A DNA stretch of 64,000 nucleotides from an uncultured Arenicella sp. (GTDB taxonomy: Bacteria; Pseudomonadota; Gammaproteobacteria; Arenicellales; Arenicellaceae). Where the stretch lies: positions 1 through 64,000 of the forward strand of contig CALJWL010000030.1 of assembly GCA_937974565.1 (NCBI GenBank), given 5' to 3'. This document shows, piece after piece, positions 8,419 through 25,714 of this stretch (positions are counted from its first letter, which is position 1; each line of letters begins with the position of its first letter). The translations under genes were made by a program, and so were the position numbers. The notes beneath the pieces were generated by a model. That model saw nothing but the letters and a program-made list of their open reading frames with translations, was not told the DNA's origin and did not search any database.

Positions 8419-8504
8419 ATCACAGGGGGAAAAAGTCGCATTCTGTTTTGATCCAAAGGGTTTGATACTTGAGTCAGTCGTTATCAAACCTAAGGTTCAC
8501 TATT

Positions 8505-9686
8505 ATGAAAACCCCTTCCCCCCTTGCGAGGTCTGTGCTTAAAAGCACAATTCGTAACTCTCTATTTATTGCCCCTCTGCTCGTCGCTACGAATACCGCG
8601 TCGGCTGCCGGTACTATTAAAATTTCTGACAATTCAAGCATTTCAGTTGGGGCTGGTCTTCGAACACAAGCTGTTGTTGCTGAAGATGCGGCACCTGATG
8701 GAGGAAGTGGCTTTGACTTTGACGTATCTAATATACGTTTATACGTCAGTGGTCAGGTCAATGACACGGTCAAATTCACATTCAATACTGAGCGCTGGGA
8801 TAACGAAATTGATGTTCTTGATGCCATAGCTCAGTTTGAGTTTTCAGAATACTTTAACGTATGGGCTGGCTTGATGCTCACTCCGGCTGATCGTATAGAA
8901 ATGAATGGGCCTTTTTATGGCCTAAGCTGGAATCAATATACCCAGCCTTTGTTTGCCTCTGATCAAGATGCGCCTGGTGACGGCATACCTGGTGTGGCTG
9001 GTTCTGTAGGTCGAGATACTGGCGTAACCGTTTGGGGAGCCGTCGATAAGTTTCAATACGCGATTGGTGTGTTTGACGGTGTTGAGGGTGGCCCTAATAC
9101 AAGTGATAACCCTCTGATTGCAGGTCGTTTTGCCTATAACTTTTTGAACAAAGAAGACAACCCTGCTTATTACACGTCAAGCACATACCATGGTGGCTTG
9201 GGTAATGTTTTTACACTCGGCTTATCATTTCAAACTCAATCGGATGGCGTTGGCTCAGCAGCTCAATCAGGTGATTTTTCGGGTGTCACGCTCGATCTTT
9301 TGTCAGAAACTGTTCTGTCGAACAATGATGTTTTGACGATCGAAGCTGAATATAAAAATTTCGATTCAGATTTCACTGGCACTCCGTCGGCCAACCCTAT
9401 TGATGGTTGTGACTTCTGTCTTTTTGACGGGACATCTACATTTGCAACAGCTGCTTATCTATTTAAAGGAGAAGGTTACGGCGACTTTCAACCTTACATC
9501 CGTTTTGTTAGCAACGACCCTTCTGAGGGAGAGTCTAGCGACTTAACAGAAATCGGCCTCAATTACATTATCAAAGGCCACAACGCTCGATTGAACATCA
9601 ATTACGGGAGCGGTGATGCAAACATCACTGGCTTTCAAGGTGCCGATACAGACGTGTTGTCAATTGGCTTTCAACTCCAAATCTAA
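8505..9686 (+). CDS. Outer-membrane porin of the urea uptake cluster
   Basis: A 393-residue beta-barrel-type protein with a signal peptide ending near NTASA-AGTIK. The mature chain has alternating short polar/hydrophobic strands, Asp/Gly-rich turns and a terminal aromatic-rich strand ending FQLQI. DVSNIRLYVSGQVNDTVKFTFNTE and the following GLMLTPADR segment resemble phosphate-selective-type (OprO/P-like) porins. These are often called FmdC when next to amide or urea transporters. ATG 8505 is preferred over an upstream TTG because it starts a normal signal peptide. It precedes urtA by 27 bases, so a role as urea or short-amide channel is inferred from context. Confidence 0.8.
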   Translation: MKTPSPLARSVLKSTIRNSLFIAPLLVATNTASAAGTIKISDNSSISVGAGLRTQAVVAEDAAPDGGSGFDFDVSNIRLYVSGQVNDTVKFTFNTERWDNEIDVLDAIAQFEFSEYFNVWAGLMLTPADRIEMNGPFYGLSWNQYTQPLFASDQDAPGDGIPGVAGSVGRDTGVTVWGAVDKFQYAIGVFDGVEGGPNTSDNPLIAGRFAYNFLNKEDNPAYYTSSTYHGGLGNVFTLGLSFQTQSDGVGSAAQSGDFSGVTLDLLSETVLSNNDVLTIEAEYKNFDSDFTGTPSANPIDGCDFCLFDGTSTFATAAYLFKGEGYGDFQPYIRFVSNDPSEGESSDLTEIGLNYIIKGHNARLNINYGSGDANITGFQGADTDVLSIGFQLQI

Positions 9687-9713: not shown

Positions 9714-11006
9714 ATGAAATTAAAGAACATAATGAGCAAAGTGGCGCTGGGTTTAGGCGCCTGTGCTATGGCGGTGAGCGTTCAAGTAAAAGCCGAAGAC
9801 ACGATTAAAGTCGGTGTATTGCACTCTCTTTCTGGCACTATGGCAATTTCTGAAACCACATTAAAAGACACTGTTTTAATGATGATTGATGAGCAAAACG
9901 CGGCTGGCGGTCTATTAGGTAAAAAACTTGAGCCGGTGGTCGTTGACCCCGCATCAAACTGGCCTTTGTTTGCTGAAAAAACCCGTGAGTTGATTTCTAA
10001 AAATGGCGTTGACGTGATTTTTGGCTGCTGGACATCCGTGTCTCGTAAATCGGCGCTTCCGGTTCTAGAAGAACTTAATGGCTTAATGTTTTATCCTGTT
10101 CAGTATGAAGGTGAAGAGTCTTCAAAAAATGTATTCTATACAGGCGCAGCGCCTAATCAACAGGCAATTCCGGCTGTTGATTATTTAGCTGAGGAACTTG
10201 AAGTTGAGCGTTGGGTGCTTGCCGGAACGGATTACGTTTACCCACGTACTACCAATAAAATTTTAGAAGCCTACTTGAAAAGCAAAGGTGTCGCCGCTGA
10301 AGACATCATGATCAACTACACACCGTTTGGTCATGCGGATTGGCAAGGTATTGTTTCGGATATCAAAAAATTCGGAAGCGCAGGTAAGAAAACCGCCGTT
10401 GTTTCAACGGTGAATGGCGATGCCAATGTGCCTTTTTATAAAGAGTTGGGTAACCAAGGAATTTCAGCTGAAGATATTCCAGTTGTGGCATTCTCTGTCG
10501 GTGAAGAGGAATTGTCTGGTTTTGATACCGCACCACTGGTTGGCCATTTAGCCGCATGGAACTACTTTCAAAGTGCCGAGTCTGATGCTAACGATGAATT
10601 CATCGCTAAATGGAAGTCTTTCATCAAAGACGATAAGCGTGTAACGAATGATCCAATGGAAGCCACTTACGTTGGTTTTAAAGCGTGGGCTAAAGCGGTT
10701 GAAAAAGCAGGTTCTACTGATGTGGATAAAGTTCGCTCAGCCATGTATGGAATTGAAGTGGCGAATTTAACGGGCGGCGTAGCAAAAGTGTTGCCAAACC
10801 ACCATTTCACTAAACCTGTGTTGATTGGCGAAATTCAAGCCGATGGTCAGTTTGAAATTGTGTCTCAAACTGAAGAAGTCGCTGGTGATGCATGGACGGA
10901 TCACTTAGAAGAAAGCGCTAAGATCATTTCTGATTGGCAAGACCCGAAAGTTAATTGCGGTAATTACAATACGGAAACAAAAGCATGCTCAGGTCAGAAC
11001 TTCTAA
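9714..11006 (+). CDS. urtA: Urea ABC transporter substrate-binding protein UrtA
   Basis: Periplasmic binding protein that delivers urea to UrtBCDE. The 430-residue protein has a signal peptide ending near VKA-EDTIKVG. The type-I periplasmic fold of the amide/urea-binding branch starts with KVGVLHSLSGTMAISE. GCWTSVSRKSALPVLE, LFYPVQYEGEESSKN and YVYPRTTNKILEAYL are diagnostic of the UrtA/FmdD group and set it apart from LivK amino-acid binders. It follows the porin and is itself followed by a strong terminator-like hairpin, probably giving more binding protein than membrane components. Confidence 0.95.
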   Translation: MKLKNIMSKVALGLGACAMAVSVQVKAEDTIKVGVLHSLSGTMAISETTLKDTVLMMIDEQNAAGGLLGKKLEPVVVDPASNWPLFAEKTRELISKNGVDVIFGCWTSVSRKSALPVLEELNGLMFYPVQYEGEESSKNVFYTGAAPNQQAIPAVDYLAEELEVERWVLAGTDYVYPRTTNKILEAYLKSKGVAAEDIMINYTPFGHADWQGIVSDIKKFGSAGKKTAVVSTVNGDANVPFYKELGNQGISAEDIPVVAFSVGEEELSGFDTAPLVGHLAAWNYFQSAESDANDEFIAKWKSFIKDDKRVTNDPMEATYVGFKAWAKAVEKAGSTDVDKVRSAMYGIEVANLTGGVAKVLPNHHFTKPVLIGEIQADGQFEIVSQTEEVAGDAWTDHLEESAKIISDWQDPKVNCGNYNTETKACSGQNF

Positions 11007-11029
11007 GCTGACCCATTGGTATTGCAACG

Positions 11030-11066
11030 ATCTTTGGGGAGAAAATTCTCCCCAAAGATTTTTATT
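11030..11066 (+). terminator. Strong stem-loop between urtA and urtB
   Basis: ATCTTTGGGGAGAA pairs perfectly with TTCTCCCCAAAGAT around a two-base loop (11030-11059), then TTTTATTTTTG follows. It has every mark of an intrinsic terminator. In its position between a binding-protein gene and the permease genes it probably attenuates read-through. Confidence 0.88.
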
Positions 11067-11098
11067 TTTGACTTAGAAAATATTTTAAAATGCCATGT

Positions 11099-11114
11099 TG
11101 GCACACGGTTTTCA
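11099..11114 (+). promoter_or_regulatory. Weak sigma-54-like promoter candidate before urtB
   Basis: TGGCACACGGTTTTCA has a perfect -24 TGGCAC and correct spacing, but TTTCA in place of the -12 TTGCA. It lies behind the urtA terminator, 109 bases before urtB. A nitrogen-controlled promoter would fit here, but the missing GC at -12 keeps this tentative. Confidence 0.25.
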
Positions 11115-11222
11115 ACGTATTCCAACGCGGTTCTTTTATATTCAACCATGTCAATCGCGTCATAAATTAATAATTATTGAGTGGTGTGCGAAGGCGTTTG
11201 AGGCGTATCAGAAAGATCCCAT

Positions 11223-12959
11223 ATGAGTACTACTAACCCCCATAAATTGCGCAATGCGGTGCTTTTTCTGGTCGGGGCGATATTATTGATGTTCATGGCT
11301 GAGGTTTTTAGCGCTGATAGCGCTTCATCCGACACCAGTGTCATTAAGCCCTTGCTTGCACCTAATAGTAGCGACCCTAGTCAGCCAGATACCTTTAACT
11401 CTATCGACGGTTCTATTGACTCTATTGCGCAAAAGCTGGCATCAGCAAAACTTAAAAAAATCCCCAGTGTTGTTGATGAATTGATCAACAATGCAACAAC
11501 TAAAGAGCAAGAAAATTTAGCACTCGCTTATATTACAGCCCTTCTTGAAGGTGAGTTGTATTCTCGCCGAAGCAACTCACAATTGGTCCTTGCTAAAGTG
11601 ACGCAAGAGAAGTCTTTCGATCTCTACAACATTAAAGACACCCAACTCATTGAGTCTGATGTTAACAAGAAAAGTATCAAAAAAATCAGATCGTCCAATA
11701 AGGTCAGAAAATTTCTAAGAACATCAATCGCTAAAATTCAATTAAGCAGCGCTGATGTTAATCAGCGGATCAAGTCCGTCACTAACTTGATGTCAAACGT
11801 CGATGCACAAGCATTAATGTTATTAGAAGAGGCTCGTCTCAAAGAAACAAACATTAAGGTAAAAAACAAGCTTGACGATGCCATTGCCCTAGGGAATTTA
11901 GCCAGTAATAATGAGCTTGATGTTATTACTGCGTTAGAACATTTAGAAGGCAATCTTGAGCCTCAAGTGAGAAATGCCATTACCAAGTTATTAAACCAAG
12001 ACACACCCAAATCAATAGAGTCTTTGGCTATTAAGACCTTTGATTCAATTGAGAAAAAAGTCAAATTTAACGGTTACATTGAGCGTATTTTCTTCGGTCT
12101 CAGCTTAGGGTCAATCCTGCTTCTTGTGGCGGCTGGGTTAGCTATTACTTTTGGCGTGATGGGCGTCATTAATATGGCGCACGGAGAGTTAATAATGATC
12201 GGTGCATACACAACGTATGTTGTTCAATTACTCATGCCTAATTACATCGAATATTCATTGCTGGTCGCCTTGCCTGCCGCCTTTATTGTGTCTGGCTTAT
12301 TTGGCATTGGAATTGAACGCGGCGTTATACAGTTTCTAAAAGGCCGGCCTCTTGAGACTCTGCTAGCCACTTTTGGCATTAGCTTAGTGTTGCAGCAATT
12401 AGTTCGCACGATTTTTTCTCCGCTTAATCGCCAAGTAGTCAGTCCAGAATTCATGAGCGGCGCATTGCAAATAAACCCCGTTCTGTCACTGACGTACAAT
12501 CGCATTTACATACTGGTTTTTGCCTTAGTTGTGTTTTTTCTTCTGCAATTACTCATGCGTAAAACGTCTCTTGGTTTAAACGTGAGGGCCGTTTCGCAAA
12601 ATCGTAATATGGCCAGAGCCATGGGCATACGATCTGAATGGGTGGATGCCATGACGTTCGGTTTGGGCTCTGGCATTGCTGGGTTGGCGGGGGTTGCCCT
12701 GACTCAAATAACAAACGTAGGCCCAAACTTAGGTCAATCTTACATAATTGACTCGTTTATGGTGGTTGTATTTGGTGGGGTTGGCAACTTGTGGGGGACT
12801 TTGGTTGGTGCCTTCACTGTCGGCGCTTTGAACAAGTTTTTGGAGCCAGTTACCGGCACGGTACTCGCTACTATCATCGTTTTGGTACTGATTATTTTAT
12901 TTATTCAACGACGCCCTCGTGGCCTGTTTCCACAAAAAGGGCGAGCGGCTGACTCATGA
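11223..12959 (+). CDS. urtB: Urea ABC transporter permease UrtB
   Basis: Inner-membrane permease of the LivH type, one half of the urea channel. Its 578 residues fall into two parts. An N-terminal membrane anchor or signal leads into a helical, mostly polar extracytoplasmic region of about 250 residues. From about residue 285 the LivH-like core begins with GSILLLVAAGLAITFGVMG and NMAHGELIMIGAYT, and ends with a QRRPRGLFPQKGR tail. The long N-terminal region is a known feature of proteobacterial UrtB. It overlaps urtC by four bases (ATGA), indicating coupled translation. Confidence 0.94.
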   Translation: MSTTNPHKLRNAVLFLVGAILLMFMAEVFSADSASSDTSVIKPLLAPNSSDPSQPDTFNSIDGSIDSIAQKLASAKLKKIPSVVDELINNATTKEQENLALAYITALLEGELYSRRSNSQLVLAKVTQEKSFDLYNIKDTQLIESDVNKKSIKKIRSSNKVRKFLRTSIAKIQLSSADVNQRIKSVTNLMSNVDAQALMLLEEARLKETNIKVKNKLDDAIALGNLASNNELDVITALEHLEGNLEPQVRNAITKLLNQDTPKSIESLAIKTFDSIEKKVKFNGYIERIFFGLSLGSILLLVAAGLAITFGVMGVINMAHGELIMIGAYTTYVVQLLMPNYIEYSLLVALPAAFIVSGLFGIGIERGVIQFLKGRPLETLLATFGISLVLQQLVRTIFSPLNRQVVSPEFMSGALQINPVLSLTYNRIYILVFALVVFFLLQLLMRKTSLGLNVRAVSQNRNMARAMGIRSEWVDAMTFGLGSGIAGLAGVALTQITNVGPNLGQSYIIDSFMVVVFGGVGNLWGTLVGAFTVGALNKFLEPVTGTVLATIIVLVLIILFIQRRPRGLFPQKGRAADS

Positions 12960-14227
12960 CATCAATAAACACAAATTTAAACAACGAAAAAAACGATAGA
13001 AAGACGGCTCTATCAAAAGCAACTGGTGCGTATAAACGCCCTAGCCTGCTCTCCGAACAGAGTTCTTACTGGCTGATGATTATCACCGCAATAATAGTTG
13101 CGTATGCGTCGATTGGTAATTTGCTAATACCGGAAAGCTCAGCGCTTCACGTGAGTACCCACACGGTGACATTGCTGGGCAAATATTTATGCTACGCATT
13201 GCTGGCGTTATCAGTCGATGTCATTTGGGGCTACTGCGGTATATTAAGCCTAGGTCATGGGGCATTTTTTGCTCTTGGTGGCTACGGTATGGGCATGTAC
13301 CTAATGCGTCAAATTGGGTCGCGTGGTGTTTACGCCGACCCCGTTTTACCAGACTTTATGGTGTTTTTGAACTGGAGCGAATTGCCTTGGTTTTGGCATG
13401 GTTTTGACCAATTATGGTATGCCATCATTATGATCATGTTGGTACCTGGCTTGCTCGCTTTCGTATTCGGTTACCTTGCCTTTAGGTCACGTGTCACCGG
13501 GGTTTATTTATCCATTATGACTCAGGCACTGACATACGCACTGATGCTGGCATTTTTTCGTAATGAGATGGGCTTTGGTGGCAATAATGGAATGACCGAC
13601 TTTAAAGACATCATGGGTTTTAGTTTGCAAGCGGATGGTACTCGGGTTGCCTTATTTGTGATCACGGCAATCACGTTACTCGGAGCTTATTTACTGAGTA
13701 AATGGTTAATGTCATCAAAATTTGGGCGCATTATCATCTCCATTCGAGATTCGGAAGATCGAAGCCGGTTCATCGGCTATCGAACCGAGCGCTATAAGGT
13801 CTGGTTGTTTGTTTATTCTGCCGTGCTTGCGGGTATCGCCGGGGCTTTGTATGTGCCGCAAGTTGGTATCATTAACCCTAGTGAATTCACGCCACTTAAT
13901 TCCATTGAACTTGTGGTATGGGTTGCGGTTGGTGGACGCGGCACCTTGTACGGTGCCATTGCCGGTGCCATTTTAGTCAATTTTGCCAAAACTCGTTTCA
14001 CCGGCATTTTCCCTGAAGCATGGTTGTTTGCCTTAGGTGGTCTTTTCGTATTCGTCACCATCTTTTTACCTAAGGGTGTGGCGGGCTTTATCACTCAATG
14101 GCGTGGTAATACTGGCGAAGAAACACCAATCTCAACCGATGCTCCTTCCACACTAGAGCAAGCCCCCCTTACTCAGTCCCAAAATTCTGATAAAAACATG
14201 AAAAGCGACTTGACGGGTAATGAGTAA
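12956..14227 (+). CDS. urtC: Urea ABC transporter permease UrtC
   Basis: LivM-type inner-membrane permease partner of UrtB, 423 residues. Conserved parts include DVIWGYCGILSLGHGAFFALGGYGMGMYLM, FGYLAFRSRVTGVYLSIMTQ, SIRDSEDRSRFIGYR and VAVGGRGTLYGAIAGAILVN. UrtC and UrtB pair to form the channel. The gene starts within the urtB stop and ends directly against the urtD start codon, with no spacer. The extreme N-terminus and a Ser/Thr/Gln-rich C-terminal tail are not conserved family parts. Confidence 0.94.
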   Translation: MTSINTNLNNEKNDRKTALSKATGAYKRPSLLSEQSSYWLMIITAIIVAYASIGNLLIPESSALHVSTHTVTLLGKYLCYALLALSVDVIWGYCGILSLGHGAFFALGGYGMGMYLMRQIGSRGVYADPVLPDFMVFLNWSELPWFWHGFDQLWYAIIMIMLVPGLLAFVFGYLAFRSRVTGVYLSIMTQALTYALMLAFFRNEMGFGGNNGMTDFKDIMGFSLQADGTRVALFVITAITLLGAYLLSKWLMSSKFGRIIISIRDSEDRSRFIGYRTERYKVWLFVYSAVLAGIAGALYVPQVGIINPSEFTPLNSIELVVWVAVGGRGTLYGAIAGAILVNFAKTRFTGIFPEAWLFALGGLFVFVTIFLPKGVAGFITQWRGNTGEETPISTDAPSTLEQAPLTQSQNSDKNMKSDLTGNE

Positions 14228-15061
14228 ATGAAAAATAGCAAAACGTTAAATAAAGTACGTGACTACTTTAACATTGAGTACCATCAAGCCGTTACAGAGC
14301 CAAGAATTGATATTTCAAAAGACATCATTCTTTACATAGAAGGCTTAACGGTCAGTTTTGATGGCTTTAAGGCACTCAATGACCTGAACCTCTACATCAA
14401 TGACGGTGAGCTAAGGTGCCTTATTGGTGCAAATGGCGCTGGTAAAACAACATTAATGGACGTGATTACCGGTAAAACAGCTTGTGATTCTGGCTCAGCT
14501 TTTTTCGGTCAACACATTGACTTATTAGAACGTAGCGAAGCCGAAATAGCCCAACTAGGCATTGGCCGAAAATTTCAAAAGCCTTCGATTTTCGAGGCCT
14601 TAGATGTATATTCTAATCTCGAACTTTCATTGAAACTCAATAAGTCAGTAATGAGTTCAATCAGAGCTAGCTTAAACAATGAGTCTCGTGATCGTATTGC
14701 GCAGGTACTTTCTATTATTGGGTTAGCTCCACATTACAAACAACTTGCTGGAGCCCTGTCTCATGGGCAAAAACAATGGTTAGAAATTGGTATGTTGCTG
14801 TGCGCTGACCCCAGAGTCTTGTTGGTGGACGAACCCGTAGCAGGCATGACCGCTCAAGAAACAGAACGAACAGCCGAATTGCTTACTTCTTTAGCCGGTG
14901 AACGGACGGTTATTGTGGTTGAGCATGATATGGAGTTTGTTCGCAGTATTGCGCGTGAAGTAACCGTTCTTCATCAAGGCTCAGTGTTAGCCGAAGGGTC
15001 GATGGATGAAATACAATCAAACCCAGCTGTAATCGAAGTTTATCTTGGAGAAACAACATGA
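14228..15061 (+). CDS. urtD: Urea ABC transporter ATP-binding protein UrtD
   Basis: ATPase of the LivG type that powers urea import, 277 residues. Walker A is GANGAGKTT near residues 67-75, the signature is LSHGQKQWLEIGM (His in place of Gly, as is usual in UrtD), Walker B is LLVDEPVAGM, and the switch histidine is in VVEHDMEFV. GIGRKFQKPSIFEAL is typical of the family. It abuts urtC directly and overlaps urtE by four bases. Confidence 0.95.
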   Translation: MKNSKTLNKVRDYFNIEYHQAVTEPRIDISKDIILYIEGLTVSFDGFKALNDLNLYINDGELRCLIGANGAGKTTLMDVITGKTACDSGSAFFGQHIDLLERSEAEIAQLGIGRKFQKPSIFEALDVYSNLELSLKLNKSVMSSIRASLNNESRDRIAQVLSIIGLAPHYKQLAGALSHGQKQWLEIGMLLCADPRVLLVDEPVAGMTAQETERTAELLTSLAGERTVIVVEHDMEFVRSIAREVTVLHQGSVLAEGSMDEIQSNPAVIEVYLGETT

Positions 15062-15753
15062 TTCAATTCGACAAGGTGAACCAACTCTATGGCAGTTCAC
15101 AGATACTTTGGGATCTAAATCTTAATATTCGTTCTGGTTCTGTAACTTGTGTTATGGGGCGCAACGGCGTTGGGAAAACAACCGCACTCAAAGTTCTTAT
15201 GGGGTTGTTACCAACGAAAACAGGGGAGATACTCTATGAAGGTGAGGATATCACTGCTTGGAACGCCGAACGTCGCGCCCATGAAGGCATTGGTTATGTT
15301 CCTCAAGGGCGCGATATATTTGCGCAATTAACAGTGGAAGAAAACCTAAAAATTGGCTTGGCTTGTCGAAAAGACAAAGCCAAAAAAGTCCCCAGTAAAA
15401 TTTTTGATCTGTTTCCAGTTTTACACGACATGCGTACTCGCCGAGGTGGTGATTTGTCGGGGGGGCAACAACAGCAATTGGCTATTGGTCGAGCCCTTGT
15501 AATTGAACCCAAAGTACTTATTCTAGATGAGCCAAACGAAGGTATTCAGCCTAATATTGTTCAGCAAATAGGCGATGTTATTTTGCAACTTAATAAGCAA
15601 GAGCAGTTAACGGTTCTTTTGGTCGAACAAAAATTGGGCTTTGCTCGTCGTGTGGGAAGTCATTTCACTTTGATGGAAAAAGGCAGTGCCGTTGCATCGG
15701 GTTCCATGAGCGACTTATCAGACGAGTTAATTGCAAAACATTTGGCCGTATAA
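15058..15753 (+). CDS. urtE: Urea ABC transporter ATP-binding protein UrtE
   Basis: Second ATPase of the transporter, LivF type, 231 residues. Walker A is GRNGVGKTT (residues 34-42), the signature LSGGQQQQLAIGRAL, and Walker B VLILDEPNEGI. YEGEDITAW and YVPQGRDIFAQLTVEENL are family motifs. ATG overlaps the urtD stop (ATGA). The ureD coding region begins within about ten bases of its end, so transporter and enzyme genes are cotranscribed. Confidence 0.95.
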   Translation: MIQFDKVNQLYGSSQILWDLNLNIRSGSVTCVMGRNGVGKTTALKVLMGLLPTKTGEILYEGEDITAWNAERRAHEGIGYVPQGRDIFAQLTVEENLKIGLACRKDKAKKVPSKIFDLFPVLHDMRTRRGGDLSGGQQQQLAIGRALVIEPKVLILDEPNEGIQPNIVQQIGDVILQLNKQEQLTVLLVEQKLGFARRVGSHFTLMEKGSAVASGSMSDLSDELIAKHLAV

Positions 15754-15763
15754 ACTCAGTTTC

Positions 15764-16711
15764 ATGGCATTACCATATTTAAGTGACAATGCAAACCATT
15801 ATTCTATGAGCGACGCGCATGACAAGTCTGACGCACGTGCTGTTGCCGCTCAGAGCATGAAAGCCGGTGAGTGGCATGCCAATTTGGGGTTGCAAATTGA
15901 ACAGCGTTCAACCGGTGCTAGGCTGGTAAGTTATAAACGTAATGGCCCCTTGCACATACAAAAAGCCTTTTATCCTGAAGGTCAGGATATGGCGCATTTG
16001 TATATTTTGCACCCGCCCGGCGGTTTGGTGTCTGGGGATTCGTTAACAGTCAATGCTCAGATCGGCCACAACAGTGCAGCCCTCATTACAACGCCCGGTG
16101 CCGGAAGAATTTATGGCTCAGGAAAATCGGTAAAGCATCAAGTGCAGCACAATAATTTGCGTATTGCTGCGCACGCCAGTCTTGAATGGTTTCCAATGGA
16201 AACGCTGTTTTATTCGGGTTCTAATGGTGTCAGTCATACCCGCATAGACATTGACGATGGCGGCACTTTTATGGGCTGGGACATTGCCAGCTTAGGGTTG
16301 CCCGCCAGCGATCGCCCGTTTACCTCAGGCAAAGTGCGTCAAGTGATGGAAATATTCCACAAAGGTAAACTTTCATGGATTGAGCGTTGGCGTTTTAATT
16401 CAAAAGATCATGACTTTTTAAACAGCGTGGTTGGCCTAAATGGTTACAGCGCAAACGGGGTCTTTGTCGCTGGCCCTTTTTCGGGTGAATTGCCTGAAAA
16501 ACTGATCAAACGGCTTCATTCTTTATGTCAAACGGTAAGTAAAAATAATCATGGCGTTGCTGGAGTAACACAAATTAACCAATGGTTAGCCATGAGATAC
16601 GTTGGCATAAGCACCACTCATGCGCGAGAATACTTTACTCAGGCTTGGCGAGAGCTTCGCCCAGAATTATTAAACCGAAAAGCATGCCCTCCCCGTATTT
16701 GGGCCTGCTAA
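15764..16711 (+). CDS. ureD: Urease accessory protein UreD (UreH)
   Basis: Urease maturation factor that binds apo-urease and recruits UreF and UreG for nickel insertion. Conserved motifs are [40 protein letters not shown] and [11 protein letters not shown]. From ATG 15764 the product is 315 residues. ATG 15806 is also possible (301 residues), and neither has a clear ribosome site, so the exact start is open. The family core starts near [12 protein letters not shown]. It heads the urease part of the operon, right after urtE. Confidence 0.93.
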
Positions 16712-16736
16712 GCATTATTGGAGAATAATAGAGATC

Positions 16737-17039
16737 ATGGATTTACTACCCAGAGAAAAAGACAAATTGCTTTTGTTTACTGCCGCACTAATGGCCGAAC
16801 GAAGGCTGATGCGCGGTGTTAAATTAAATTATCCTGAAACAGTCGCTTATTTAAGCATGATCATCATTGAAGGGGCTCGCGATGGCAAAACGGTGGCCGA
16901 ATTAATGAGTGAAGGTCGCGAAGTTCTGACTATTGATCAAGTGATGCCGGGCGTCGCTGAACTGGTTGACGAGGTTCAAGTCGAGGCCACATTCCCAGAT
17001 GGAACCAAGCTGGTTACCGTACACCAACCCATTAACTAG
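16737..17039 (+). CDS. ureA: Urease subunit gamma UreA
   Basis: Smallest structural subunit of the nickel urease, exactly the usual 100 residues. Family sequence is seen throughout: [80 protein letters not shown] ribosome site GGAG lies ahead of ATG 16737. It is followed 11 bases later by the fused beta-alpha subunit gene. Confidence 0.97.
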
Positions 17040-17050
17040 CACGGTTAATT

Positions 17051-19120
17051 ATGACTAAAAAACAAAACTTCAAGCCAGGTCAAGTGAGTACTCAAGGCGC
17101 ACCGATCATCATAAACGAGGGGCGTGACACCCTGTCATTGTGGGTTGAAAATAATGGTGACCGGCCAATCCAAGTTGGCTCTCATTATCATTTTTATGAA
17201 ACCAATTCAGCGTTGATATTTGAACGCGAGAAGTCTAAAGGTTTTAGGCTGAATATCGTTGCCGGAACAGCCGTGCGATTTGAACCTGGTCAGGGTCGTG
17301 AGGTTGAATTAGTGCGTTTTGGGGGAGCGCAACGTGTGTTTGGTTTTCGCGGCGATGTAATGGGCGAATTAAAAGACATTAAAGCAACTGGCACCCAAAG
17401 CAGCGCAAGTGTTGAGCGCGAAGCTTACGCTCAAATGTTTGGCCCCACCCTTGGCGATCGCGTACGACTTGCCGACACAAGTCTTTGGATAAAAGTTGAA
17501 AAAGACTACACTGTGTATGGTGATGAAGTAAAGTTTGGTGGCGGTAAAGTCATTCGTGACGGCATGGGGCAAAGTCAAGCCAGCTGTGCTGACTCAATGG
17601 ATACCGTTATCACAAATGCCTTGATTTTAGATCACTGGGGGATTGTTAAAGCCGATGTCGGTCTTAAAGGTGGTCGAATCGCCGCCATCGGCAAAGCTGG
17701 AAACCCTGATATACAAGACGGTGTCACCATTGTTATTGGCGCCGGCACCGAAATTATTGCCGGCGAAGGGTCGATATTGACGGCTGGCGGTGTTGACGCT
17801 CACATTCATTTTATTTGCCCACAACAAATAGACGAAGCGTTAATGTCAGGTGTAACCACGATGATCGGCGGTGGTACAGGACCAGCGACTGGCACAAACG
17901 CAACAACGTGTACACCGGGGCCATGGAATATTCACCAAATGCTTAAGTCCACCGATGGTTTACCAATGAATTTTGGATTCTTAGGCAAAGGTAACGCCAG
18001 CCAGCCCGAGGCTCTGCGTGATCAATTAGATGCGGGTGCTTGCGGCTTAAAACTTCATGAAGACTGGGGTACAACCCCCGCATCAATTGATTGCTGTCTA
18101 AGTGTTGCTGAAGAGTACGATGTGCAAGTTGCGATTCACACAGACACGTTGAATGAGTCTGGTTTCGTTGACGACACATTAAACGCGTTTAAAGGCCGGA
18201 CAATACACACTTATCATACCGAAGGTGCTGGTGGTGGCCATGCGCCTGATATCATAAAAGCAGCCAGTTTGGAAAACGTTCTACCCTCTTCAACCAACCC
18301 GACTCGCCCTTACACCATTAATACCGTTGACGAACATTTAGACATGCTAATGGTATGTCATCATTTAGACAGTGACATTCCTGAAGACGTGGCGTTCGCT
18401 GACTCTCGTATTCGTAAGGAGACCATTGCCGCCGAAGACATCCTTCACGATTTAGGCGCTTTCAGCATGATTGCTTCGGATTCTCAGGCCATGGGCCGGG
18501 TCGGCGAAGTGGTCACGAGAACATGGCAAACAGCGCATAAAATGCGAGAACAACGCGGCCCACTTAAGGAAGACAGTGTCGATGAAAGTACCGGCAGCCA
18601 TGACAATTTTCGAGCACGTCGTTATATAGCAAAATACACCATCAACCCAGCAATTGCCCACGGTATTAGCCACGAAGTTGGCAGCATTGAAGTTGGCAAA
18701 CTGGCCGACTTAATACTGTGGAAGCCTGCCATGTTTGGAATCAAACCCAGCTTAATAATAAAAGGCGGTTTTATAGCGGCCGCCCCAATGGGAGACCCAA
18801 ACGCCTCAATTCCAACGCCACAGCCGGTGCATTACAGAAAAATGTTTGGCGCCCAGCCTAACAGTGCCTCGTCAAACAGCATTACCTTTGTAAGTAAAGC
18901 CGCGTCACAGAGCGATTTAGCGAATACACTGGGCTTGCAACGGCAACTTGTGGCATGCCGTAATACCCGAGATATTAAGAAAAGCGACATGATTCTCAAT
19001 GACGCGACGCCAGAGATATCGGTAAACCCTGAAACTTATGAAGTGTTGGCCGATGGTGAGTTCCTCACTTGTGAACCTGCGATCGAATTACCTCTTGCAC
19101 AACTGTATTGCCTGTTTTAA
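17051..19120 (+). CDS. Fused urease subunit beta-alpha (UreB-UreC)
   Basis: One 689-residue reading frame covers two normally separate urease subunits. Residues 1-108 are UreB ([40 protein letters not shown]). Residues about 121-689 are UreC, starting [20 protein letters not shown] and ending in the usual LPLAQ..LF. Active-site residues line up with a constant offset of 117 from Klebsiella UreC: His251, His253, carbamylated Lys334, His363, His389, Cys436, His437 and Asp477, so catalysis should be intact. Between codons 105 and 128 there is no in-frame ATG, GTG or TTG, which argues against separate translation of UreC. UreB-UreC fusion is unusual; the well-known bacterial fusion (Helicobacter, some actinobacteria) joins UreA and UreB. 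Confidence 0.96.
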
Positions 19121-19141
19121 CCAGTGAGGCATGAGAAGAAC

Positions 19142-19594
19142 ATGTTAGAAGTGTACCAACGAATTAACGAACCATCGAACCTAGAACCCGATTATCGACT
19201 GTTGTTAACGCATGATGAACGCTGTCGTGCGCGTCTTAAAATCGAAACAACCGACGGTGTTCCCGTCGGCGTATTTTTACCGCACGGCCAACCGTTAATG
19301 GTCGGTGAGTACTTATTAAGTGATTGTGGCCAAACATTGCGAGTTGATGGAGCAGCCGAGCCCGTTGTCTCAGCCAGTTGCGATGACCCCTTATTGTTTT
19401 CTCGTGCTTGTTATCATCTTGGGAATCGACATGTAAAGATTCAAATTGCCGAACGGGTTTTGCGTATCACGCCCGACTCAGTTCTTGAAGACATGTTAGT
19501 TTTACTCGGTCTGCAGGTTCGAAAAGAACACGCTGTTTTTATTCCTGAAAGCGGAGCTTATCACGCTAAGGGGCACGGTCATGAGCATGAGTGA
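19142..19594 (+). CDS. ureE: Urease accessory protein UreE
   Basis: Nickel metallochaperone that delivers Ni to the urease assembly complex. The protein has 150 residues from ATG 19142, chosen over an in-frame GTG at 19124 because GAGAAG sits at the right distance. Conserved parts are RARLKIETTDGVPVGVFLPHG, CYHLGNRHVKIQI and ITPDSVLEDMLVLLG. It ends in a short His-rich tail (HAKGHGHEHE), which is probably a nickel site but much shorter than in Klebsiella. Confidence 0.94.
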   Translation: MLEVYQRINEPSNLEPDYRLLLTHDERCRARLKIETTDGVPVGVFLPHGQPLMVGEYLLSDCGQTLRVDGAAEPVVSASCDDPLLFSRACYHLGNRHVKIQIAERVLRITPDSVLEDMLVLLGLQVRKEHAVFIPESGAYHAKGHGHEHE

Positions 19595-19649
19595 CCTGAG
19601 CCCGTACGAGGTGTTTTTCGCTGTCATCATGCATGGGCTAATCGCATGA
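19581..19649 (+). CDS. Candidate 22-codon coupling ORF between ureE and ureF
   Basis: ATG 19581, inside the end of ureE, opens a 22-codon frame (MSMSDLSPYEVFFAVIMHGL..). It ends in TGA overlapping the ureF ATG at 19646 (ATGA). ureF has no ribosome site of its own, so ribosomes finishing this mini-frame could re-initiate on ureF. The peptide is not a known family; its role, if any, is translational coupling. Confidence 0.3.
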   Translation: MSMSDLSPYEVFFAVIMHGLIA

Positions 19650-20317
19650 CGTTGGCCAGTTTACGTTTACTTCAACTGTGCAGTGCAAATTTGCCAACGG
19701 GCGCCTATGCGTTTTCGTTAGGTCTGGAAACCGCCACTGAAGAAGGCTGGGTTACAAACCAAAATCAGGCTCGAACGTGGTTAGAAGTTCAATTACGTTA
19801 CAGTGTTGGCGGCAGCGATCTCCCCATTTTGCTGCGCTCATTAAAAACATTGGAAAATAATGACGTAGAATCCTTACTTCACTGGAATCGTATGGCATTA
19901 ACATTACGAGAAACTAAAGAATTAAGGCTAACGGATTCGGCCACCGGCGAAGCACTCATGCGCATTTTAAAAGGCTTGGAAAATGGCCATTTAAGCACGC
20001 CATTAAGTACCGAAAAAGAAATCAGTTTTGTCACCGCTTTTGCATTTGCCGCTCACCAATGGCGTATACCAGCCGTCGATGCCTGCATGGGCTACGCGTG
20101 GTCTTGGTTAGAGAATCAAGTCGCCGCGGCCACTAAACTTGTGCCACTTGGACAAACCCAATCTCAACAATTGTTAGAAACACTGCAACCGAATGTATTG
20201 AGCGCGCTTGAATACGCAAAAACGTGCGCGGACAGCGATATTGGCGAGAGTTTACCAATGTTGTCCGTAGCCAGTTGCTGGCATGAACATCAATACAGTC
20301 GATTGTTTAGGTCTTAA
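19646..20317 (+). CDS. ureF: Urease accessory protein UreF
   Basis: Helical urease maturation protein that bridges UreD and UreG and controls UreG GTPase timing. It has 223 residues, with family motifs [52 protein letters not shown] and [17 protein letters not shown]. The start ATG 19646 has no visible Shine-Dalgarno and overlaps a preceding stop codon. ureG follows after 14 bases. Confidence 0.94.
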
Positions 20318-20331
20318 ACCTAGGAGAATTT

Positions 20332-20982
20332 ATGAATGACAAAAAAAAACGCCCAGCACTTAGAGTTGGGGTTGGTGGCCCAGTTGGGTCTGGCAAAACG
20401 GCCCTACTCCGCTCATTATGCCAATCCATGCGAGACACGTATAACATCGCCGTTGTAACAAACGATATTTACACACAAGAAGATTCTGAATTTTTAACTC
20501 GACACGGAGCCTTAGATGCCGACAGAATCATTGGCGTTGAAACCGGCGGTTGCCCTCATACGGCCATTCGTGAAGATGCGTCAATGAATTTAGCGGCCAT
20601 TGATGAATTAAATGCTCGCCACCCAGCGTTAGATGTCATTTTTGTTGAAAGCGGCGGAGACAATTTATCCGCCACATTTAGCCCAGAATTGTCAGACCTT
20701 ACACTGTATGTGATTGACGTATCAGCCGGAGATAAAATTCCACGTAAAGGCGGCCCAGGCATTACGAAGTCTGACTTATTAATTATTAACAAAACCGATT
20801 TGGCGCCTCTTGTTGGGGCCTCTTTAGAGGTGATGAACAGCGACACTCAATTAATGCGAAAAGAGCGTCCATTCGTTTTCTCCAACCTAAAAAAGGCTCA
20901 AGGTCTTAGCGATATCATTAACTTTATTGTTAGTGATGGCATGTTACCTGAACGCCCCATACAATCATTTTCAGGAGTATAA
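20332..20982 (+). CDS. ureG: Urease accessory GTPase UreG
   Basis: SIMIBI-class GTPase that carries nickel and drives its insertion into urease. The 216 residues include the P-loop [25 protein letters not shown], the nickel-binding Cys-Pro-His of [33 protein letters not shown] and the guanine motif INKTDL. AGGAG precedes the ATG. A small membrane-protein gene begins two bases after the stop. Confidence 0.97.
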
Positions 20983-20984
20983 TT

Positions 20985-21206
20985 TTGAAAAATTCAATTA
21001 AAAATTTTAGTTTAATCTTTGCTGTATTCAGCTTGACACCCGTGTTCGCTCACTCTAACCATGAGTCGCATACACACGTTACAGAGTTAGGGTTGATTGC
21101 ATTAGTATCCGTGGTTGCCGGGTATTTATTTTATCGATTAATCAGCTCTCATCTGTCTTTCAATGCAAACAAAAATCATAAAGTTACTGACCAACGAAGT
21201 ACCTAA
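20985..21206 (+). CDS. Small His-rich membrane protein ending the urease operon
   Basis: A 73-residue protein starting at TTG 20985, preceded by AGGAG at a good distance and only two bases after the ureG stop. It has a cleavable signal sequence (SLTPVFA-HS), a short His-rich stretch HSNHESHTH that would face the periplasm, one membrane helix (GLIALVSVVAGYLFY) and a basic, polar tail. I do not recognise the family. The position and the His cluster suggest nickel binding or trafficking, which is inference only; HupE/UreJ nickel permeases share a His-rich start but are several times longer. Confidence 0.7.
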   Translation: MKNSIKNFSLIFAVFSLTPVFAHSNHESHTHVTELGLIALVSVVAGYLFYRLISSHLSFNANKNHKVTDQRST

Positions 21207-21327: not shown

Positions 21328-22215
21328 TTAACCCAATAACCTAATCGCAACCCCAGCAGCGGCCGTTCTGTTTTCCACACCGAGTTTAGGGAATACTTGT
21401 TCTAGATGTTTATTCACTGTTCTGACACTCATGGCTAAAATTTCAGCGATTTCTTTGTTGCTTTTACCGTTGGCCAACCAAAACAACACTTCAGACTCAC
21501 GCTTAGTAAGATTTAATCGACTTTGAAGTGTTTCTGCTCCAACTGTTGGCGAATTAAGTACAATACGCAGAGAAAACTTAGCTTGATCGCGTTTTTCGAC
21601 AAACCTAAGTTCAGCAAATTCATCGCCTTCTAAAGGCAGCACTAAACGGCTATTCACGTCAGGGTTTTGGCTAAGCCAATACGATGTTTTTTCTTGGTGA
21701 GTAGCCCACTTTATTCTAGCCAGCAGAGCATGGGTGTCAGGCGTAGCCCATAAAACATCCGCCTGTTCAGTCACAATGATGAAAAATTGCCCTAGTGAAT
21801 CCAACACTTGATACGCATTATCTGTGAACGCAGCATTGTTTAAATGCACTTTCATCCGTGCAATTAGTTCATCAGGGTTCACTGGCTTAGTTAAATAATC
21901 CACGCCTCCAACACTCAGACCTTTGACAATACTCTGAGTGTCACTCAAACCTGTCATAAACATAACTGGTACGGATGTTAAACCAGCTAATAATTTGAGT
22001 TGTGAGCAGGTTTCAAAGCCATTCATATTTGGCATGATGGCATCAAGTAAAATAAGATCAGGCCGTATGTTTTTAGCAATAGACAAGGCTTGCTTGCCGT
22101 CCAGTGCAACCAGCGTGTTGATGCCCACATCTTCAAGCACATCGCTGATGAGGCTAAGACTGTCCGCCGAATCATCAACCACAAGCACTGTGTATTGTGA
22201 AAGGTCACTGGTCAT
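21328..22215 (-). CDS. LuxR/FixJ-type response regulator
   Basis: A 295-residue two-component regulator. The receiver domain (about residues 8-125) has the acidic pair VVDDS, phospho-acceptor Asp58 in LILLDAIMP, MTG, and the lysine in YLTKPV. A middle region of about 100 residues resembles a degenerate PAS-like linker. The C-terminal LuxR helix-turn-helix (about 232-292) reads LTKRESEVLFWLANGKSNKEIAE and SVRTVNKHLEQVFPKLGV. Its start lies inside the end of the hybrid-kinase gene (11-base overlap), so the two are cotranscribed partners. Control of the adjacent urea genes is inferred from the shared dyad at 8401 and 25753. Confidence 0.92.
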   Translation of the reverse strand: MTSDLSQYTVLVVDDSADSLSLISDVLEDVGINTLVALDGKQALSIAKNIRPDLILLDAIMPNMNGFETCSQLKLLAGLTSVPVMFMTGLSDTQSIVKGLSVGGVDYLTKPVNPDELIARMKVHLNNAAFTDNAYQVLDSLGQFFIIVTEQADVLWATPDTHALLARIKWATHQEKTSYWLSQNPDVNSRLVLPLEGDEFAELRFVEKRDQAKFSLRIVLNSPTVGAETLQSRLNLTKRESEVLFWLANGKSNKEIAEILAMSVRTVNKHLEQVFPKLGVENRTAAAGVAIRLLG

Positions 22216-25200
22216 TTAAATGCCCTCTAATAACATCAATTAAAGCGCCGTATTGAAAGCGTTGCGCTAACTTTTGCCATTCTAACAAAGTTTCTGGGTT
22301 GGGCCATTGCACTTCTTCTTCATTGTGTTGGCCAAGCCTAAGCATGGCGGCTTTAATACCTTTTACATGCCCTATTTCAAGGTGAGCTTGAAGCTCACGC
22401 AATAAACCAATCTTCGATGAGGGAACGGCTGTTTCAGCGTTTGTATCGATGTTGCTTTTCGGTAAGTCCTTAAAATCAAAGTTCAAAAGATTTCCATCAT
22501 TGTTAGTGCTGACACGCTGATGAGCTTCTTCGTAATTCCACTTTAAGTCTAGTAATTGAGTCATATGCAATAACAAGGCTTGATTTTGCATTGGTTTAAC
22601 AATATAGGCGTCATAAATATTTTGCGTATTGCCTAACGGCATGTGCTGATCTTCAGGGTCGGCGGAGAGCATCAATATTGGGGCAGTAAAACCTGAGTCT
22701 CGTATGTGTTTGGCCAAACTTAAACCGTTTTCGCCAGGCATGGAGTTATCTAAAATGTATAAATCAATATGAGTGCCTAACATGCGTCGAGCCACCGTGG
22801 CGTCAGAGGCTTCGAGAACTTGAAACCCCATTGGCTGAAGTAAGTCGGCGATAAGGCCTCGATGTATTGCCTCGTCATCAATGACCAATACCGTTTTTTG
22901 TTCACCTTGGTAAGAGACTATTGACTCATCAAATGTACGTGAGACTCCAACCCCAACGGTTTCAAACATCAACACACTTACGCTAAATTCACTGCCCACC
23001 CCTAACTCACTTTTAACCGTCAATTCACCTCCCATTATTTCAGTTAAAAGGCGCACAATGGTGAGGCCAAGCCCAGTGCCATTAACGTTCGGCACATTAG
23101 TTGTTCTTACGCGCTCGAACGGCAACATGATACGCTCTAAATCATCATCAGCGATGCCCACACCGCTGTCTTTTACCGATATGTTAGCCACTTGGTTGCG
23201 ATAACGAACATCGACATCCACCGCCCCTTTTTCGGTGTATTTAATTGCATTGCTGATCAAATTAATTAAAATTTGCCGCAGACGCTTTTCATCGGCCGTC
23301 ACGTACTCGGGTAAATTTTTACCTCGTGTGAGGCAAAACTTGATGCCTTTAGACGTTGCTATTGGTACAAAAATTTCTTCAATTTGATCTAAAAAGTCTT
23401 TGAAATTAATACGATTTCGATAAAGCTCTAAGCGCCCTGCTTCAATTTTTGAAATGTTAAGTAAACCTTCAATAAGGTCAGCCAAATACTCACTGTTACG
23501 ACGGATAATGTTAAGCCCTTTAGCTTGAAAATCATTGACGTCCTTCTTATTCGCGAGTAATTGCGCATAACCTGATATGGATTGCAGTGGCGTTCTTAAC
23601 TCGTGACTAATCCCAGTCAAATAACGACTTTTCGCTTGGTTGGCTTGCTCAGCTAATTCTTTAGCGGTTTGCAGTTCCTTATCAGTAATGTCGTGAGCCT
23701 CCACTTCATCAATTAATCGAGCTGTTTGGCGATTCGACTCTTGTTGAGCAATTTCTCGGCTCTCTTGGGTTAGTAAAAATACCCAAGCAATCACACCGAA
23801 AACCATCACCAATATAAAATACAAAGAAACCAAAGCTTCTTTAAGCATCAACTGCTCGCTGACCTCAATCGGGCTAATTTGGTAATAAATGAGCGACAGC
23901 AATAACCACGTTAATACCCCTATAAGGCTGAGGGTCATCAGAAAACGCCAAACCCGATAGTCTGCGGCGCTGGCAAACCGTTCTGGCAACATTTCACGAA
24001 ACATATGTTTGAGCTGAACTCGAAATCGCCCATGCGGTTTACAGGCGTCCATGCATCGAGTATCTAAGGAACAACAAAGAGAGCAAATAACCCCCTGGTA
24101 CGCAGGGCACAAAGCCATATCAGGGCTTTCAAATGTATTCTCACAGATACAACAGGTCTGCTCCGTGGAACTCAACGATAACTCTGTGAGGCTTTCTTCC
24201 AAATCGTGTTCACGGGCAATGTAGTATTTTGCTTTAGTTACCATAGCGATAAAAGGCACACTAATAAAACAAATAGCAATGGTAATAAAATGCGCTAAAG
24301 ATTTAGCTTCTTCACCGACATACCCAAGGTAACAAACAATGCCTACAAAGGTGGCAACGGCCATACTGACCACACCAACGGGGTTAACGTCATACAAATA
24401 GGCTCGCTTAAATTCAACTTCTTTAGGGCGTAGCCCAAGTGCCGAATTAATAAGTAAGTCGGCGGCAATGCAACTGAGCCAGCTCACGGCCACTATCGCA
24501 AACACACCTAAGATTGACTCAAGGGCTCTATAAATGCCCAACTCCATTAAAATAAGAGCGATGGCAACATTAAATACTAGCCATACCACTCGCCCAGGGT
24601 GACTGTGTGTTATACGTGAGAAAAAGTTGGACCACGCTAAAGAGCCTGCATAGGCATTAGTAACATTGATTTTCATCTGGCAGACGACAACCATCACACC
24701 CGCAAGCACCAACGCAAATGTCGGGGATTGAGTAGCATAAGAGAATGCCATTTGATACATATAAGTTGGGTCTGCGGCCTTTTCAATCCCAACCCCTTTA
24801 GATACCGCTAAGTAGGCTAAAAATGAGCCAAATAGCATTTTAATAATACCAATGAGTATCCACCCAGGCCCCGCAAGCAACACCCAAAACCACCACTTTC
24901 GAGAGTTTTGGCGATTCTTTTTAGGCATAAATCGCAAATAATCTACTTGTTCACCAATCTGCGCCACCAGTGCAAACATTACCGCTGATGCAGCCCCAAA
25001 CATTGTCAGATTGAACTCAGTGCTTATCGTGTTACTGTTTGACGTTCCTGTTTTCGTGGTTGGGGCGTAAGAGAGCCACTCATTGAATTGTTGGTACTCA
25101 TTAACGCACACAATTAATAACGCACTGATTTGTAATGGCAACCAAACCCATTGACTGTGTATTTGGAATCGACTTATTGCTGAAATACCATGCGATACAA

Positions 25201-25714
25201 TTGGCATCACAGCAACTGCACACAATATATAACCAATCCAAAGAGGAATCCCTAAGAGTGCTTTGAGCGCCGAAGCTAAAATAGCGGCTTCGATGGCAAA
25301 AAATATAAAGGTGAACGAAGCGTAAATAAGAGAAGTTATGGTTGACCCTAGATAACCAAAACCAGCACTGCGAGTTAATAAATCAATATCCAACCCGTGA
25401 CGAGCGGCAAAAACGCTAATAGGGTATCCGGTTAAAATGATAACCACCGTCAAGGCCATCATGGCCCAAAAGGTATTTGCAAAGCCGAAAGTGAGGGTTA
25501 AACTAGCGGCAATGGCTTCCAATGCCAAGAATGCGGTCGCTCCTAAGGCTGTTTTAGCAACCGTCTCTATTGACCATCGACGACGAGATTGTGCCGCAAA
25601 ACGTAAGGAATAATCTTCAAGAGTCTCATTGGCAACCCATTTATTGTATTCACGCCGTTCGCGAAAAATATGCTGACGCGCTCTCATTAATTTAGGTATA
25701 CCAAGTCTATTCAA
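22205..25714 (-). CDS. Hybrid histidine kinase with NCS1-permease-like input domain and Cys cluster
   Basis: A 1169-residue membrane signalling protein. Residues about 45-500 form a polytopic transporter-like domain of the NCS1 (cytosine/allantoin permease) type: GYPISVFAARHGLDI, GFGYLGS and a dozen hydrophobic helices. Residues 521-558 hold eight or nine cysteines (CCICENTF, CPAYQGVICSLCC, RCMDAC), resembling a metal-binding knuckle. Two more helices follow (about 590-612 and 628-648), then a coiled coil. HisKA has His704 in GISHELRTP. The ATPase domain has NAIKYTEKG and GTGLGLTIVRLL, and the receiver has Asp989 (YILDNSMPG) and Lys1040. The last 100 residues are unassigned. CbrA-type kinases carry a sodium/solute symporter domain in the same way; an NCS1 version next to urea genes is much less familiar. 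It overlaps the LuxR regulator gene. Confidence 0.9.
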   Translation of the reverse strand: MNRLGIPKLMRARQHIFRERREYNKWVANETLEDYSLRFAAQSRRRWSIETVAKTALGATAFLALEAIAASLTLTFGFANTFWAMMALTVVIILTGYPISVFAARHGLDIDLLTRSAGFGYLGSTITSLIYASFTFIFFAIEAAILASALKALLGIPLWIGYILCAVAVMPIVSHGISAISRFQIHSQWVWLPLQISALLIVCVNEYQQFNEWLSYAPTTKTGTSNSNTISTEFNLTMFGAASAVMFALVAQIGEQVDYLRFMPKKNRQNSRKWWFWVLLAGPGWILIGIIKMLFGSFLAYLAVSKGVGIEKAADPTYMYQMAFSYATQSPTFALVLAGVMVVVCQMKINVTNAYAGSLAWSNFFSRITHSHPGRVVWLVFNVAIALILMELGIYRALESILGVFAIVAVSWLSCIAADLLINSALGLRPKEVEFKRAYLYDVNPVGVVSMAVATFVGIVCYLGYVGEEAKSLAHFITIAICFISVPFIAMVTKAKYYIAREHDLEESLTELSLSSTEQTCCICENTFESPDMALCPAYQGVICSLCCSLDTRCMDACKPHGRFRVQLKHMFREMLPERFASAADYRVWRFLMTLSLIGVLTWLLLSLIYYQISPIEVSEQLMLKEALVSLYFILVMVFGVIAWVFLLTQESREIAQQESNRQTARLIDEVEAHDITDKELQTAKELAEQANQAKSRYLTGISHELRTPLQSISGYAQLLANKKDVNDFQAKGLNIIRRNSEYLADLIEGLLNISKIEAGRLELYRNRINFKDFLDQIEEIFVPIATSKGIKFCLTRGKNLPEYVTADEKRLRQILINLISNAIKYTEKGAVDVDVRYRNQVANISVKDSGVGIADDDLERIMLPFERVRTTNVPNVNGTGLGLTIVRLLTEIMGGELTVKSELGVGSEFSVSVLMFETVGVGVSRTFDESIVSYQGEQKTVLVIDDEAIHRGLIADLLQPMGFQVLEASDATVARRMLGTHIDLYILDNSMPGENGLSLAKHIRDSGFTAPILMLSADPEDQHMPLGNTQNIYDAYIVKPMQNQALLLHMTQLLDLKWNYEEAHQRVSTNNDGNLLNFDFKDLPKSNIDTNAETAVPSSKIGLLRELQAHLEIGHVKGIKAAMLRLGQHNEEEVQWPNPETLLEWQKLAQRFQYGALIDVIRGHLNDQ

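Follow-up and report, generated by a model that had tools for sequence, protein, structure and literature searches.

A hybrid histidine kinase with a predicted NCS1-type permease input beside the urea uptake and urease genes of an uncultured Arenicella species

The analysed window is a stretch of 64,000 nucleotides from an uncultured Arenicella sp. (assembly GCA_937974565.1, contig CALJWL010000030.1, positions 1-64,000, forward strand). A complete urea uptake and urease locus, which the initial annotation had reported beside a histidine kinase gene, is indeed present at 9714-20982 on the plus strand and points toward the minus-strand genes of the kinase and its partner regulator. Both urtA and urtB pass curated NCBIfam cut-offs. 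The genes, and the parts of the kinase, are as follows.

9714..15753, plus strand: urtABCDE, urea ABC transporter, presumed target (TIGR03407/TIGR03409 above cut-off; synteny)
15731..20982, plus strand: ureD, ureA, fused ureB-ureC, ureE, ureF and ureG, presumed target (ORFs; orthologs beside relatives)
21328..22215, minus strand: partner response regulator, receiver and LuxR/GerE helix-turn-helix (ORF, domain match; conserved beside 59/64 fused relatives)
22205..25714, minus strand: hybrid sensor histidine kinase with a predicted NCS1 permease input (ORF and Pfam; probable start ATG 25687, 1160 residues)
24200..25657, minus strand: predicted NCS1-type permease domain, residues ~20-505, 12 predicted helices (AlphaFold model, Foldseek to Mhp1/CodB, CodB profile match, hhalign 98%)
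24041..24154, minus strand: Cys module, residues 521-558, eight invariant cysteines, predicted cytoplasmic (conservation in 69/69, fold model, restriction to the family)
23708..23956, minus strand: two extra transmembrane helices and a signalling coiled coil, residues ~587-669 (hydropathy and model helices)
23435..23635, minus strand: HisKA, residues 694-760, phospho-accepting His704 (Pfam; His kept in 68/69)
22973..23293, minus strand: HATPase_c, residues 808-914 (Pfam)
22568..22891, minus strand: receiver domain, residues 942-1049, Asp989 (Pfam and alignment of relatives)

The urease beta and alpha subunits are fused in a single ORF of 689 residues (17051-19120); most relatives have separate genes. 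A porin-like gene (8469-9686) lies just before urtA, and is conserved beside urtA or the kinase gene in loci L039, L040, L041 and L052. Directly after ureG there is a short membrane-protein-like ORF (20983-21205) with the His-rich stretch HSNHESHTHV, for which no relative was found at the same place in the other loci.

The kinase gene is read on the minus strand, its ORF spanning 25714-22205; the initial annotation of 22205-25714 had left the strand unstated. The ORF itself stands, and comprises 1169 codons if read from TTG 25714 or 1160 if read from ATG 25687. The latter is probably the true start because the conserved starts of the homologs align with Met10 of the ORF. Pfam recognizes only HisKA, HATPase_c and Response_reg in the protein. 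His704 of HisKA and Asp989 of the receiver, both correctly named at the outset, complete a hybrid histidine kinase, and the histidine has an equivalent in 68 of the 69 fused relatives. The two extra helices that had been placed after the cysteine segment are seen both in the hydropathy profile and in the AlphaFold model (578-604 and 609-660 in model numbering, to which 9 is added to obtain the residue number). The C-terminal helical tail (window 22205-22460) carries a conserved G-x3-G pattern.

The Pfam model of the NCS1 family, PF02133, matches neither the kinase protein nor anything else in its own genome, and neither a phmmer search with the single kinase sequence nor a permease-only profile (A2) found a match in the PDB. 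Nevertheless, the structural model identifies the N-terminal part of the kinase as a 12-helix NCS1 permease. The assignment holds despite the Pfam miss because a profile of 30 relatives matches CodB (7qoa) with E=0.0022, because a stand-alone relative that is 43% identical (L054) matches PF02133 above the cut-off (1.1e-7), and because the AlphaFold model of residues 10-670 (pLDDT 81, pTM 0.82) has a 5+5 LeuT fold of 12 helices closest to Mhp1 and CodB. These two proteins occupy ranks 1-4 of a Foldseek search of the PDB, with E=2.5e-9 and 6e-9 and TM-scores to the target of 0.67-0.77. An hhalign comparison with the CodB family alignment gives a probability of 98% and an E-value of 1.7e-12. The PF02133 model is thus not sensitive enough for this domain. 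An NCS1-type input had been proposed initially with the concern that an unrelated fold might emerge, and no such fold appeared.

The domain was compared with CodB residue by residue, the roles of the CodB residues being taken from PMC9379551. The positions of CodB Gly29, Phe33 and Asn280 are kept in the alignment, whereas Trp108 and Gln105 are replaced by Phe138 and Thr135 (hhalign). On TM6, the counterpart of the aromatic CodB Phe204 is aliphatic, and this holds in either register of the helix, which could be off by one residue. For TM8, where plain MAFFT differs by three residues, the gap-free profile-profile register of hhalign was preferred. In this register the CodB sodium ligands Thr278 and Thr279 correspond to Lys348 and Ile349, so that the Ser/Thr pair of the Na2 site is absent. 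The Na2 site is found in Mhp1 and CodB, but is not required for NCS1 membership. FurE, for instance, is described as an H+ symporter and is thus a proton-coupled member (PMC10788122).

The 69 fused and all five stand-alone members of the family share eleven invariant residues, E142, Q252, E255, Q256, D258, R261, Q346, K348, N350, N353 and Y355, and eight of these (E142, Q252, E255, Q256, D258, K348, N350 and N353) belong to the pocket, the polar residues of which are identical in fused and stand-alone permeases. Among near relatives the permease is as well conserved (68%) as the kinase core (67%), whereas the transmembrane linker (46%), the receiver (47%) and the tail (21%) have drifted, as would be expected if a ligand site were under selection.

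The permease is followed by a cysteine-rich module, which the helix count places in the cytoplasm, between helix 12 and the two further helices. The eight to nine cysteines that had been noted in residues 521-558 number nine (521, 522, 524, 536, 544, 547, 548, 554 and 558). All except Cys522 are invariant in 69 of 69 fused relatives; Cys522 and the cysteines checked elsewhere in the protein vary. Together with the conserved kinase histidine (68/69), the eight cysteines show that the architecture did not arise by chance. Two stand-alone permeases, L131 from Methylovirgula and L046, keep all eight. In two others, L054 and L129, exactly 521, 524, 544 and 547 remain of the eight, and the Streptomyces protein L130 keeps these plus 536. 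Because the short versions retain four cysteines only, the alignment suggests two separate four-Cys sites, 521/524/544/547 and 536/548/554/558.

When modelled in isolation, the module forms a knuckle, hairpins and a helix with a core pLDDT of 86-91. Treble-clef fingers of the RING, PHD, FYVE and related types make up most of its Foldseek matches, all with E of at least 0.16 and none with a sequence match. The module thus models as a RING/PHD/FYVE-like treble clef, predicted to bind two zinc ions, and the all-Cys character of the modelled fold, devoid of His ligands, suggests that the zinc would be structural. When the PDB was searched with the module sequence, most hits were short C2H2 segments aligned to a single CxxC knuckle, and these are not meaningful. 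The module is not a free-standing domain either: in 398 Pseudomonadota genomes it occurs solely in permease proteins, apart from one weak fragment. The zinc-knuckle-like stretch of the initial annotation is hence present and models as a zinc finger; it is not, however, special to the kinase, as it is also present in the stand-alone permeases of the subfamily.

The start of the regulator gene (22215) overlaps the end of the kinase gene (22205) by 11 bases, a sign of translational coupling. A LuxR-type regulator accompanies 59 of the 64 fused loci surveyed, including three (L090, L091 and L122) in which it was split over two tblastn pieces; the five that lack it encode proteins with variant outputs. 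An HPt domain is usual, but not universal, for the relay from a hybrid kinase to its regulator. In the alignment of relatives, the helical tail at the C-terminus of the kinase has no conserved histidine that would mark an HPt. Phosphate may thus reach the regulator either by direct transfer or through an unlinked HPt.

The neighborhoods of about 64 fused loci were surveyed up to ~10 kb on each side, leaving out L036 (truncated), L054 (stand-alone) and L110 (a plain NCS1 protein). Genes of urt or ure lie within ~10 kb of the kinase in 51 of these 64 loci, which are related, non-randomly chosen and not independent; in the remaining 13, some of which are near contig ends, there were no urea genes in that range. 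The association proposed in the initial annotation has thus been found again across genomes, and the kinase does not occur mostly away from urea genes. The link spans gamma-, alpha- and other Pseudomonadota as well as plasmids, and extends to whole genomes: urtA is present in 14 of 18 genomes with the kinase, compared to 84 of 369 overall (Fisher p=5.5e-7).

Two settings can be distinguished. One consists of the true urtABCDE and urease genes, as in the window. In the other, a UrtABCDE-like set ~40% identical is followed, in the loci checked, by genes for a CN-hydrolase and/or the FmdA formamidase; its UrtA still passes the urea-transporter model. On pSymB of Sinorhizobium meliloti the kinase gene is divergent from urtABCDE and adjacent to dctABD, in Methylovirgula a formamidase gene alone lies beside the kinase, and on Klebsiella/E. 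coli plasmids (NZ_CP012884, L128; NZ_CP151001, L152) the kinase accompanies urtABCDE and formamidase. The proximity of urtABCDE and formamidase has previously been interpreted as formamide uptake (PMC13209695).

The family matches 19 of 369 gammaproteobacterial genomes, one of which (G120) has only a plain NCS1 permease, and 55 of 398 Pseudomonadota genomes, nearly all with fused forms. It also matches 524 plasmid records, 342 of them from Klebsiella and a few from E. coli. PGAP names its members 'hybrid sensor histidine kinase/response regulator' or 'ATP-binding protein'. The same permease-Cys-TM input is joined to other outputs in a GGDEF-EAL protein (L048), a PAS-hybrid kinase (L050) and plain kinases (L044 and L106). 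In the GGDEF-EAL protein (L048, 6852-10526, minus strand), the input with its eight cysteines and two helices is fused to PAS-GGDEF-EAL, for which a cyclic-di-GMP output is likely; the same genome has the PAS-hybrid kinase version.

The stand-alone forms fall into one supported group nested among the fused ones in the permease tree, which, being rooted at its midpoint with long outgroup branches, does not fix the direction of fusion or loss. Stand-alone permeases with the Cys tail adjoin a kinase-fused paralog in L046 (9593-11443, plus), L129 (6159-7772, minus) and L131 (12685-14334, plus), and these neighbors look as if they were sensor and transporter pairs. The L129 record comprises 3.66 Mb of Acinetobacter DNA; PLSDB labels it as plasmid pDETAB15, but its size suggests a chromosome. 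The Streptomyces protein (L130, 5923-7602, plus), 42% identical and with a short Cys tail, is annotated as an allantoin permease, an annotation that may be wrong.

We propose, with a probability of about 60%, that this kinase is a sensor of the transporter type devoted to the acquisition of urea and short-chain amides, switching urt, together with ure or amidase genes, via the LuxR-type regulator. The ligand is most likely urea or a short amide because this is what both neighborhood settings have in common. The signalling route that we infer would begin with a small amide (urea, formamide or acetamide) binding in the central pocket of the NCS1-fold permease. The ensuing conformational change would reach the binuclear zinc-finger module, docked beneath the permease on the cytoplasmic side, and then, through the two helices and the coiled coil, HisKA/HATPase. 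His704 would hand its phosphate to Asp989 and/or straight to the regulator encoded by the overlapping gene, which in turn would switch the urt operon and the ure or amidase operon. By analogy, the zinc-finger module might take the place of STAC, which in CbrA docks under the transporter (PMC13022988).

Several observations count against this proposal: the 13 loci without urea genes, the relatedness and non-random choice of the loci, the failure to find an HPt in the kinase tail for a standard hybrid relay, and the substrates known so far for NCS1 proteins, among which there are cyclic or larger nitrogen compounds (cytosine, hydantoin, allantoin, metformin) but no urea. These substrates, together with the annotation of the Streptomyces relative and xdhC-like genes 7-12 kb from the kinase, would agree with sensing of a purine or pyrimidine breakdown product (allantoin, hydantoin or similar) that turns on urea handling in advance. 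We consider this unlikely: family members throughout are accompanied by genes for urea or amides and not for purine catabolism, the aromatic position of CodB Phe204 is aliphatic here, and the allantoin annotation derives solely from the family name. The initial annotation had offered urea, a purine product or nickel as the signal. The urea link stands; a purine product fits less well than urea or a short amide because the family also adjoins formamidase/amidase operons. Nickel, zinc or redox state acting on the Cys module, so as to set kinase activity for urease maturation, would account for the eight invariant cysteines and for the nickel requirement of urease. It is very unlikely, nickel included, as the module is invariant beside amidases and occurs beside urease-free formamidase operons, in the GGDEF-EAL protein and in stand-alone permeases, and as its all-Cys fold points to structural zinc.

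It is conceivable, if rather doubtful, that the permease is a true transceptor, still transporting its ligand in a proton-coupled manner, and that the kinase reads the flux and not binding alone. The pocket shared by fused and stand-alone permeases and the stand-alone paralogs beside the kinases in L046, L129 and L131 argue for this, as does CbrA, whose SLC5 domain imports histidine and carries a Lys within its Na2 region (PMC13022988, PMC7918813); in the window kinase, the invariant Lys348 aligns to the CodB Na2 ligand Thr278. Lys348, however, is also present in the stand-alone relatives and cannot tell a sensor from a transporter, and a transporter domain that is fused to a kinase can lose its transport activity, as Ks-Amt5 demonstrates (PMC5764959). 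That the permease is a membrane anchor only, the signal coming from elsewhere, is scarcely credible: nothing specific favors it, the domain matches the kinase core in conservation, and its polar pocket is invariant. A wider version of the urea/amide sensor hypothesis, to which we give somewhat less than even odds, is a widespread family of urea/short-amide transceptors, in which the NCS1 permease would read urea directly, zinc-finger coupling would be particular to the subfamily, and the pocket would be common to sensors and stand-alone uptake permeases.

The usual explanations for the control of urease and urea uptake are general nitrogen regulation (Ntr), pH and nickel. A sensor in the membrane that responds specifically to urea or small amides, if real, would add a new layer, and NCS1 would join SLC5 and Amt among the few transporter folds that are known to drive kinases. 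Because permeases of this kind occur naturally on their own, fused to kinases and fused to GGDEF-EAL, the evolution from transporter to receptor becomes testable. Many Klebsiella plasmids carry the kinase next to their urea-transport genes, where it has gone unremarked; a preprint on Klebsiella CG307 discusses such a cluster, 'UTS', without mention of the kinase (PMC13060141). Transporter-fused kinases are already known (SLC5/STAC, Ks-Amt5); a literature search covering mainly open-access papers, in which absence is not proof, found no description of an NCS1-fused or a urea-sensing kinase.

In fold and helix pattern the permease domain resembles the NCS1 transporters Mhp1, CodB and MetT, although CodB lacks the C-terminal Cys module. 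Like RING, PHD and FYVE fingers, the module is predicted to form a treble clef with two four-Cys sites, but its probable Cys pairing (1,2,4,5 and 3,6,7,8) differs from the cross-brace order of RING. Like the window kinase, Ks-Amt5 is a nitrogen-related, repurposed nutrient transporter fused to a kinase (PMC5764959); it differs in having a trimeric Amt fold and in lacking both a linker domain and a receiver. The SLC5/STAC kinases CbrA, CrbS/MxtR and RpuS also combine a LeuT-fold transporter, a small cytoplasmic linker domain and a histidine kinase, and have a paired response regulator controlling uptake or catabolic genes, as the regulator in the window would (PMC9100948, PMC5715377, PMC7918813). 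CrbS, moreover, is a hybrid with a receiver, like the window kinase. Their input, however, is SLC5/SSS, whereas that of the window kinase has no SSF (PF00474) match and is closest in fold to NCS1. Their linker is the STAC four-helix bundle, in place of which the window kinase has an eight-Cys β-hairpin module and two transmembrane helices, and its genomic link, unlike theirs, is to urea and amides.
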